Of a DNA stretch of 64,000 nucleotides, positions 1-42,279 are shown in pieces (within the stretch, counting starts at the first letter, position 1; each line of letters opens with the position of its first letter). Source of the DNA: Natronogracilivirga saccharolytica (lineage in GTDB: Bacteria; Bacteroidota; Rhodothermia; Balneolales; Natronogracilivirgulaceae). The notes below the pieces were generated by a model. The model was not told where the DNA came from. It searched no databases and worked only from the letters and a program-made list of their open reading frames with translations. A program made the translations under genes and the position numbers. The DNA lies in assembly GCF_017921895.1 (NCBI RefSeq), contig NZ_JAFIDN010000003.1, forward strand, positions 1 through 64,000. Direction: 5' to 3'.

Positions 1-131
1 AATGTCCATAACTATCCAAGTCTTTCGATTCTTTGTTTCACCTATTGGGTGAAGATACAAATTTAGCTAAACATATGAAAGACTTGATGTTACTGTAATT
101 TTTCTAATTTAACTCACGGATTCTGGTTACT

Positions 132-233
132 AATATCGGTCATCCCATCTTTGAATCAAACCACAACCTGCCTATAATAATCCCGATCATGAATTCGAAT
201 ATCGGTCATCCCATCTTTGAATCAAACCACAAC
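132..233 (-). CRISPR. Two-repeat CRISPR array end, type II-like
   Basis: Two identical 36-nt repeats (132-167 and 198-233) flank one 30-nt spacer (168-197). Read on the minus strand the repeat begins GTTGTGGTTTGATTC and ends CGATATT. A 36-nt repeat with a 30-nt spacer and a GTTGTG start is the usual geometry of type II arrays, and of II-C arrays in Bacteroidota in particular. I looked for further repeats at the expected positions (66-101 and 264-299) and found none, so this is either a one-spacer array or a remnant. No cas gene lies to the right; cas9/cas1/cas2 or a tracrRNA could lie left of the window. A chance two-copy repeat is the alternative, but perfect identity over 36 nt with this spacing makes it unlikely. 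Confidence 0.72.
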
Positions 234-34586: not shown

Positions 34587-34651
34587 GTAATACAGGGTGG
34601 ATATAATGAATCCACAGATTCAGTAAAACAGCAACAGCACATTTTGATGTA

Positions 34652-34728
34652 CAAATGAAATGCACATGACCGGGCTGGCGCCCGGACACACAGGCGCATG
34701 ATTAATCACGGCCATGGAATTACATCTG
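34652..34728 (+). ncRNA. Structured leader RNA motif, copy 1 (candidate riboswitch)
   Basis: The first of three copies of a motif of about 75 nt. A terminal stem pairs CAAATG with CATCTG (one mismatch), continues AAT/ATT and C-A-CATG/CATGG, and ends in a junction. P2 is a 6-bp hairpin CCGGGC(TGGC)GCCCGG at 34670-34685. The invariant single-stranded CACACAG (34687-34693) and ATGATTA (34698-34704) follow. Its 3' arm is 24 nt from the 5' arm of copy 2. Structure is deduced by eye from three copies. The family is not one I know, and the ligand is unknown. Confidence 0.75.
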
Positions 34729-34752
34729 ACCATATAAATCAGAAATTTTAAA

Positions 34753-34823
34753 CAGATGAAATACCCATGGCGGCTTACCGTCACACAGGAGCATGATTAT
34801 AGCCAACATGGGTACTACATTTG
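34753..34823 (+). ncRNA. Structured leader RNA motif, copy 2 (candidate riboswitch)
   Basis: The second copy in tandem, 26 nt before the flgB start. CAGATG pairs with CATTTG (one G-U), and AATACCCATG pairs with CATGGGTACT (one mismatch). P2 is GCGG(CTTA)CCGT at 34770-34781. CACACAG is at 34782-34788 and ATGATTA at 34793-34799. Its first 14 bases, with the preceding TTAA, are identical to copy 3 (TTAAACAGATGAAATACC). The ATG at 34793 inside the conserved block could be mistaken for the flgB start. Tandem aptamers usually sharpen a response, which is an inference here. Confidence 0.78.
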
Positions 34824-34849
34824 ACGTCAGAATCACAAATTATAAACAC

Positions 34850-35194
34850 ATGAAACTCATCGACAATCAGCATTCCATACTGTTGGGCAAAACAATGGAT
34901 GCGCTCACGCTGCGGCAGAAAATGACCTCATCCAATATTGCCAATATGGATACTCCGGGCTATAAGAAACTGAATGTCAGTTTTGAGGATGAACTGCAGC
35001 GTGCCCAGGACAAAGGGGGCGTCCGGGCGATGAATACCGTCAATCCGACTATTGAAGAAACAGATGAGAAGCCGGTGCTGGAAGACGAGCTGCTCGAAAT
35101 GACCGACACGCAGATCCGCGTCAATGTGATGACCCGATCGCTGCGTCACCATTTTGACATGCTCAGAACCGGAATCACCGGTATTAACCGATAA
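34850..35194 (+). CDS. flgB: Flagellar proximal rod protein FlgB
   Basis: A 114-residue rod subunit. The N-terminal SILLGKTMDALTLRQKMTSSNIANMDTPGYKK carries the flagellar rod signature (NIANxxTPGYK). The C-terminal MTDTQIRVNVMTRSLRHHFDMLRTGITG is the conserved coiled-coil partner. I place the start at ATG 34850 (MKLIDNQ). An upstream in-frame ATG at 34793 lies inside the conserved part of the RNA element and adds 19 residues with no FlgB character. It is the first gene of the sigma-54-driven operon. Confidence 0.92.
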   Translation: MKLIDNQHSILLGKTMDALTLRQKMTSSNIANMDTPGYKKLNVSFEDELQRAQDKGGVRAMNTVNPTIEETDEKPVLEDELLEMTDTQIRVNVMTRSLRHHFDMLRTGITGINR

Positions 35195-41115: not shown

Positions 41116-41544
41116 ATGTCCTTTAAATTTTCATTGGAACCGGTACTGAAAGTCCGGGAGCACAGAGAAAAAGTGCAGAGGCAGAAACTTGCCGAGGAGA
41201 TGAAGCGCAAGCAGCGGATCAGCGAGCAGAAGGAGGCAGTGCAGGCAGACCTCGAGCAGTTTCTGGGACAAAAAGACAAGCACAAAGTCTATGATGTCCA
41301 AAAGCTCAGAAACAGCTATGCCCATCTTGAGCACTCTCATAATGTAATGGGAAAGCTGGAACGCGATATGCAAAAAGCCGAGGATGCCATCCACAAGGAG
41401 CGCAACAAGCTTGTAACGGCGCACCGCGAAACCCATATCATGGAAAAAGCAAAAGACCGGGAGTTCTCCGCCTGGAAAGAGGATCTGGAAAGAAACGAGC
41501 AGAAAGCCATGGATGAAATTGCAACCCAATATTATAACCGATGA
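41116..41544 (+). CDS. fliJ: Flagellar export chaperone FliJ
   Basis: A 142-residue, almost entirely helical protein that should form an antiparallel coiled coil (FKFSLEPVLKVREHREKVQRQKLAEEMKRKQRISEQKEAVQADLEQF, then EHSHNVMGKLERDMQKAEDAIHKERNKLV). The FSLEPVLKVRE start is diagnostic of FliJ. Normal length is about 145. FliJ acts as the stalk of the FliI ring and as an escort for chaperones. It is followed by a hairpin and the third RNA element. Confidence 0.92.
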   Translation: MSFKFSLEPVLKVREHREKVQRQKLAEEMKRKQRISEQKEAVQADLEQFLGQKDKHKVYDVQKLRNSYAHLEHSHNVMGKLERDMQKAEDAIHKERNKLVTAHRETHIMEKAKDREFSAWKEDLERNEQKAMDEIATQYYNR

Positions 41545-41550
41545 TAAAAT

Positions 41551-41579
41551 AAGGTCGCGACATTTCACTTCGTGACCTT
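41551..41579 (+). other. Hairpin between fliJ and the third RNA element
   Basis: AAGGTCGCGA pairs with TCGTGACCTT (one G-T) around a 9-nt loop, starting seven bases after the fliJ stop. No T-run follows, so it is not a classical terminator. It may protect or process the message upstream of the RNA element at 41614, or help to pause transcription. Confidence 0.5.
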
Positions 41580-41613
41580 CGGCTCAAGCGACGTCATAAA
41601 TCCAAACAATTAA

Positions 41614-41691
41614 ACAGATGAAATACCAATGACAGAGCATAAGCTCTGACACACAGACAAATGATTAAAACTGTCATGGTATTACATCTGT
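41614..41691 (+). ncRNA. Structured leader RNA motif, copy 3 (candidate riboswitch)
   Basis: The cleanest copy. ACAGATG/CATCTGT is a perfect 7-bp stem. After an A-A mismatch AATACC/GGTATT follows, then a bulged A and ATG/CAT. P2 is CAGAGC(ATAA)GCTCTG at 41633-41648, differing from copy 1 in four of six pairs while keeping all pairing. CACACAG is at 41650-41656 and ATGATTA at 41661-41667. A short P3 (GAC/GUC) is possible and corresponds to GGC/GCC in copy 1. The ATG of the motE-like gene is 27 nt after the 3' arm, and its context ACAGATGAAA repeats the 5' arm exactly, so the 3' arm could pair with either. Confidence 0.78.
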
Positions 41692-41718
41692 CATTATAAA
41701 TCGATTTTTTTAAAACAG

Positions 41719-42279
41719 ATGAAAGCATTAAAAATATTAGGAATTGTTGTTGGTACCTTTGTCGGGACATCAGTCCTGATGTTTTTTTTGTATCCGCACA
41801 TTCATCCTGATCGTGCAGGGGACGTTGAGAAGCTGGATGAGGACCCTCTTATGGCCGGTTCGGTCTGGGAAGGCGATGTGATGAGTCCGGAGGAGTGTGA
41901 GAGCCTGCAGTCCGAACTGGAAAGCCTGCACTCCGAGAATGCCGAACTGATGAGCCGCATCGATTCACTGGATAATGAAAATGAAAAGCTGAAGGCAGAA
42001 TTGGCGGATCTGGAGTCGGCGGAGCCGCAGCCAGCCGATGAGGCCGGCATTCCGGCAGCCAACGGCACTACCATAACCATGGATGACGAAGATTTTGCAG
42101 AACGGGTTAAAAGTCTTCTGAACCTGGACGAGGAAGAGCTGGCACCGATCGTACAGAATATGGAAGATTCGCAGCTTGTACGGCTTTACCGGAGTGCCGG
42201 AAGCATTCAAAGGGAGAAACTGCTTCGCTCACTTGCCCCGGACCGGGCTGCAAAACTAATGAATGAGGTGATGTCATGA
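41719..42279 (+). CDS. MotE-like flagellar protein (MgtE-N-like domain)
   Basis: A 186-residue protein: a membrane helix at residues 7-26, an acidic linker, a coiled coil (ESLQSELESLHSENAELMSRIDSLDNENEKLKAELADLE) and a C-terminal helical domain (AERVKSLLNLDEEELAPIVQNMEDSQLVRLYRSAGSIQREKLLRSLAPDRAAKLM). This is the layout of MotE/MgtE-N-like proteins found next to fliJ or fliK in many flagellar operons, where they help stator or export function. It is preceded by the third copy of the RNA element and overlaps fliK by 4 nt (ATGA). The symbol is not certain. Confidence 0.8.
   Translation: MKALKILGIVVGTFVGTSVLMFFLYPHIHPDRAGDVEKLDEDPLMAGSVWEGDVMSPEECESLQSELESLHSENAELMSRIDSLDNENEKLKAELADLESAEPQPADEAGIPAANGTTITMDDEDFAERVKSLLNLDEEELAPIVQNMEDSQLVRLYRSAGSIQREKLLRSLAPDRAAKLMNEVMS

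Follow-up and report, generated by a model that had tools for sequence, protein, structure and literature searches.

A start-codon-associated repeat family of Balneolales, probably a miniature mobile element related to IS110

A duplicated start codon context upstream of a motE-like gene

Why do the ten bases around the start codon of a gene recur upstream of it, with a segment between them that is complementary to both? The question is raised by the first 64,000 nucleotides of contig NZ_JAFIDN010000003.1 of Natronogracilivirga saccharolytica (hereafter, the window), where ACAGATGAAA is present twice, at 41614-41623 and at 41715-41724, the second time around the ATG (41719-41721) of a motE-like open reading frame (ORF). 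The segment CATCTGT (41685-41691), or 3' arm, complements ACAGATG in both places. A preliminary description of this locus, copy 3 of a repeat, had pointed out the ten-base copy and its complement, both of which are indeed there, and had taken them for the design of a local translational switch. We found instead that the duplication arises by insertion of an element at ATGAA, as empty sites in related genomes demonstrate. The element is very likely a miniature, non-autonomous mobile element of the Balneolales, related to IS110 and targeting start codons. The open-access literature searched yielded no description of an IS110-related miniature element that targets start codons.

The features of the locus, all on the plus strand, are the following:

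41614..41723, plus strand: unit 3, a complete, putatively mobile unit from the 5' arm to the ATGAA of the motE-like start (covariance model match of 100.7 bits, alignment)
41614..41620, plus strand: the "5' arm" ACAGATG, right end of an older upstream unit, with the left junction ATGAA at 41618-41622 (unit boundaries)
41685..41691, plus strand: the 3' arm CATCTGT, coevolving with the start codon context of its own unit (sequence, covariation)
41715..41724, plus strand: right end of unit 3 and start codon, ACAG-ATGAA-A (sequence)
41541..41624, plus strand: degraded older unit directly upstream of unit 3, with the TTCACTTCGTGACCTTCGG arm of the long form (partial nhmmer match, pattern match)
41719..42279, plus strand: motE-like ORF of 186 aa without a Pfam match, its start codon coinciding with the right end of unit 3 (ORF, Pfam)

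The "5' arm" of copy 3 thus belongs to the older unit, whose right end it forms, and unit 3 ends in the same way with the start context. The repeated bases are junction duplications. The ten-base match at copy 3 is much more than expected by chance, and the region 41600-41740 is far more stably folded than shuffled sequence (z = -5.1).

A family of short repeats bounded by ATGAA

Within its own genome (3.75 Mb), the region 41600-41740 gave 49 BLAST matches, and a covariance model of the ~105-nt unit gave 123; unit counts here and below rest on stretches extracted from the genomes. Aligned units are ~99-132 nt long, begin with ATGAA(A) and finish with ...TTTTAAACA(C/G)ATGAA, and nearly all intact ones have ATGAA at both ends. 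They occur singly or in arrays of up to four, in which neighbours share the ATGAA junction. A stretch that is predicted to remain unpaired, ACACAGG..ATGATTA, is conserved in the units, and Rfam, searched at gathering and permissive thresholds, returned no family for the element, only chance matches. The units resemble miniature inverted-repeat transposable elements (MITEs) in copy number, in their size below ~300 nt and in having no coding capacity: there is no conserved reading frame, and frames from the left ATG close after 2-4 codons in most subtypes, with 22 codons open in one subtype only.

Some units are of a long form, with an extra 17-20 bp per arm (ATGAACCGAAGGTCACGAAG ... CTTCGTGACCTTCGGTTCAT, perfect complements; L046:1602-1712, L061:1507-1610, L019:2006-2107 and window 41560-41590), an extension that most units have lost on one side or on both. 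At one locus (L104:2595-2655, minus strand), the left half of a unit is followed by unrelated 3' sequence, again ending at an ATGAAA gene start, which is possibly a decayed or alternative right end.

Empty sites and insertion at gene starts

The family was found in 26 of 147 related genomes, among which genera g6 and g7 have no units. Units are plentiful in the majority of genomes of the bacterial family and rare in the other families of the order, and the named matches are metagenome-assembled genomes of Balneolales/Balneolaceae. Two matches farther afield, a pattern match in Zixiibacteriota (L080) where there is no unit and one in a single viral contig (L238) that falls in coding repeats, were discarded as chance.

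Orthologous start regions in a sister genus include both empty and filled sites, with junctions exact at ATGAA. The empty sites have the matching flank with a plain ATGAAA, and the filled ones have, in addition to a second ATGAAA, either one unit or two, as in L216 (empty, ...ataccaatATGAAATCGGG) versus L205 (filled, ...atgctaatatgaaacgaacatg, two units, ATGAAATCGGG) or L213 (empty) versus L203 (one unit). The exactness of these junctions identifies the repeated bases as insertion-site duplications.

In 37 of the 47 strong arrays, an ORF of 80 codons or more begins in sense orientation at the last ATG, far above a crude background taken from the window, where ATGAA is found at 9 greedy gene starts and at 20 other intergenic sites (p = 2e-11). 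Selection against disruptive insertions may contribute to this bias. There are exceptions, such as a unit located 3' of a convergent gene (L056) and another ~117 nt before the start of an enolase gene (L048). The target logo consists of ATGAA(A) only, with flanks that are merely AT-rich. The named genes behind units include sucC, purQ, mnmG, rfbA, flgB, and flgK, and their Pfam families are unrelated (succinyl-CoA ligase, PurQ-like amidotransferase, MnmG, cobalamin adenosyltransferase, FlgK, nucleotidyl transferase, MacB-like permease, zinc dehydrogenase), so that no functionally coherent regulon emerges from them.

An IS110 family relative with a common left end

A candidate for the enzyme that moves the units is found in the same genome. 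On contig C16 (L153), the left half of a unit is directly followed by a gene (L153:4578-5827) for an IS110 family RNA-guided transposase (NF033542, E 4.7e-83; PF01548 and PF02371), whose relatives in the PDB are IS621 and ISCro4. This DEDD transposase with its two domains is a property of the companion insertion sequence (IS) only, the ~105-nt units being devoid of it. The left end of the IS matches unit positions 2-57 (E 4.7e-7), and that of a second IS, in genome G002, matches the unit with E 9e-10. In G002, the boundaries of the element are defined by a junction at ATGAA between the right end of the IS (...GGAAACCCCGCAG) and a left end. Three further IS left ends are located at contig ends of G016, each coinciding exactly with the ATGAA that terminates an array of units. 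In G018, a hybrid 105-nt unit precedes a threonine synthase-like ORF; over its first 48 nt this unit is the IS left end save one base (47/48), and it continues with the usual right half. Three more IS110 family transposases of the window's genome (G000 C10:27846, C7:210923, and C7:214927; L233, L235, and L237) have no unit-like ends, and the ends of IS110 relatives in Alicyclobacillus are unlike the unit. No larger element enclosed between a pair of the two unit ends was found in 1.16 Mb of loci.

The repeat family, its boundaries, its target, the empty sites, the orientation, the left end common to unit and IS110 family element, and the insertion of that element at the same site are all direct observations. 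We propose that the element inserts at ATGAA, mostly the first five bases of a gene and there always in the direction of the gene. Insertion brings an AT-rich leader ending in TTTTAAACA(C/G)ATGAA, the gene retains a start codon, and a second ATGAA remains upstream. The new right end can then be targeted again, generating the tandem arrays. The units would be moved in trans by an IS110 family transposase, and the conserved hairpins would presumably serve this enzyme or its guide RNA and not the host gene.

Several observations weigh against this proposal. At the end of 10 of the 47 strong arrays there is no recognisable start codon, and an age order with older units upstream is only a tendency inside arrays (16:8, p = 0.15). 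The right half of the unit is unlike the right end of the IS (...GGAAACCCCGTAG followed by ATGAA), and the conserved right-end hairpin of the unit has no counterpart in the IS. Finally, no IS110 gene was found in G007 (98% complete, 20 contigs), which has at least 26 units, nor in most g9 genomes, which likewise contain units; hence, the mobiliser is not always present or was missed in draft assemblies.

The differing right ends and the genomes with units and no IS110 gene would be accounted for if the element were moved by a non-IS110 enzyme and IS110 elements merely used its target or had captured the left half of the unit as their left end, all the more since repeats are known targets of IS110/IS1111 elements, among them repetitive extragenic palindromic (REP) sequences and a Coxiella MITE (PMC11187229, PMC5896051). 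We consider this rather unlikely, because three genomes have the conserved loop of the unit in their IS left end, the G018 hybrid agrees with that end in 47/48 bases, and unit and IS use the same target in the same orientation. Moreover, the only other transposase type sought, Y1/HUH (PF01797), is represented by a single IS200-type copy with ends unrelated to the units, and was rejected as the mobiliser.

If the IS110 family enzyme does move the units, each of them might be cargo and guide at once, its transcript acting as a minimal bridge-type RNA for the transposase and its conserved loop and 3' arm reading the ACA(C/G)ATGAA ends. We offer this only tentatively. If true, this would be an RNA-guided transposon addressed to start codons, rewriting many gene leaders without breaking the genes. 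A candidate RNA-guided transposase with a common end and target makes the mechanism testable.

Pairing of the 3' arm and the strand-exchange model

In the strand-exchange switch of the preliminary description, the 3' arm would pair now with the 5' arm, now with the start codon, and thereby control the translation of each gene. Of these two pairings, one is borne out. We analysed covariation in 234 distinct units, using a UPGMA (unweighted pair group method with arithmetic mean) tree with parsimony and within-cluster permutation. In 178 of 233 units, the fourth base of the 3' arm complements the base preceding the right ATG, and in 64 of 178 the one preceding the left ATG. Arm and right end change jointly on 19 branches (7.0 expected), with 17 of the 19 changes compensatory, and arm and left end on 7 (7.2 expected). 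Permutation gave 174 versus 127.7 (standard deviation [sd], 6.4) for arm and right end and 50 versus 70.3 (sd, 5.7) for arm and left end. Judging by this covariation, the arm has truly coevolved in its pairing with the start codon, but not in its pairing with the 5' arm. Except in tandem arrays, nothing but host flank precedes the left ATG, which explains why the 3' arm has no conserved partner on that side.

Isolated units are predicted to form a large hairpin and a start codon hairpin. The probability of pairing between AUG and arm exceeds 0.5 in 71 of 188 units. RNAalifold on the mixed-subtype alignment recovered the hairpin of arm and start alone, owing to misalignment of the subtypes in the core. 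Copy 3 allows either pairing, but its predicted ensemble has the arm paired with the 5' arm in 98% and with the start codon in 0.1% (P of 0.98 versus 0.001), and forced pairing of the start codon is predicted to be 3.9-4.4 kcal/mol worse than pairing of the 5' arm. With such a gap, no two-state switch is predicted at equilibrium.

The second array in the window, upstream of flgB, consists of two units:

34651..34760, plus strand: flgB array, unit 1 (covariance model match of 127 bits)
34752..34854, plus strand: flgB array, unit 2, of a short subtype, ending on the ATGAA of flgB (ATG at 34850; covariance model match of 95.5 bits)

Here the arm CATTTG faces CACATG with one mismatch, confirming the imperfect match described previously. 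Among last units, 24 of 105 have both arms matched as in copy 3, and independence predicts ~27 (0.77 x 0.33). The matched fraction is equal in last units, whose start codon is used (0.77), and in inner units (0.76), which gives no indication that used start codons are under selection, with the caveat that inner units once were last. Considering also that the downstream genes have no common function and that the presence of units differs between species, a strand-exchange switch seems improbable to us; beyond the pairing itself, neither the alignments nor the modelled folds appear to lend positive support to translational switching.

A riboswitch-like leader class, that is, a ligand-binding aptamer spread before many genes by ordinary duplication, would fit the strong structure (z = -5.1), the conserved unpaired bases and the tandem copies, but it can practically be dismissed, given the lack of an Rfam match, the unrelated downstream genes, the exact ATGAA junctions with empty sites, the variable presence of units between sister species and the units 3' of convergent genes (L056).

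In the majority of cases the arm base is the same as the base before the left ATG (CC 54, GG 48, CG 29, GC 21), an identity that is also present, though weakly, among first units (Fisher p = 0.02). If real, it could be imagined as a target preference encoded in the unit, in the manner of a guide RNA. Across first and inner units of all loci, the CC/GG excess goes along with a tendency of adjacent units to alternate CACATGAA and CAGATGAA ends.

Comparison with known repeats and transposons

Inserting on start codons and restoring them is a rare way to move in a gene-dense genome, and many genes have had their leader and translation start region replaced by the units, with the potential to alter expression throughout a bacterial family. 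The main precedent for start codon insertion is the mycobacterial interspersed repetitive units (MIRUs), which form tandem arrays in the direction of the gene, contain a small ORF coupled to it, and have, to our knowledge, no known mobilising enzyme. MIRUs are short, apparently mobile units inserting at start codons (PMC12548453). The units described here likewise insert at start codons, in gene direction and in tandem; however, they contain no conserved internal small ORF coupled to the gene, have an IS110 family relative with a common left end, and target ATGAA instead of a stop/start overlap. REP sequences and bacterial interspersed mosaic elements are short hairpin repeats between genes, often clustered. 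In these traits the units resemble them, but such repeats are not directional to genes nor located at start codons, and the single Y1 transposase of our genome bears no relation to the units.

IS110/IS1111 elements work with guide RNAs and have specific targets (PMC11208160, PMC11187229), and the bridge RNAs pair with target and donor alike (PMC11208160). Elements such as IS621 and ISEc11 share with the present system a DEDD transposase, a short specific target, a single orientation, a short identity between end and target and a structured noncoding end (PMC11208160, PMC11187229), although the units themselves lack the transposase. The known bridge RNA is ~177 nt long with a target of ~11-14 nt, whereas the target here has 5-6 nt and lies on start codons, and the guide RNA is hypothetical. 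QMITE2 of Coxiella burnetii, a MITE targeted by IS1111, resembles the units as a small, multicopy, nonautonomous repeat associated with an IS110/IS1111 group element (PMC5896051). In contrast to that system, unit and IS have a common end here, and insertion replaces the start codon with the reading frame preserved.

Elsewhere in the window (119-233), there are two 49-nt direct repeats, 66 bp apart and 88% identical, that are unrelated to the start codon repeat.
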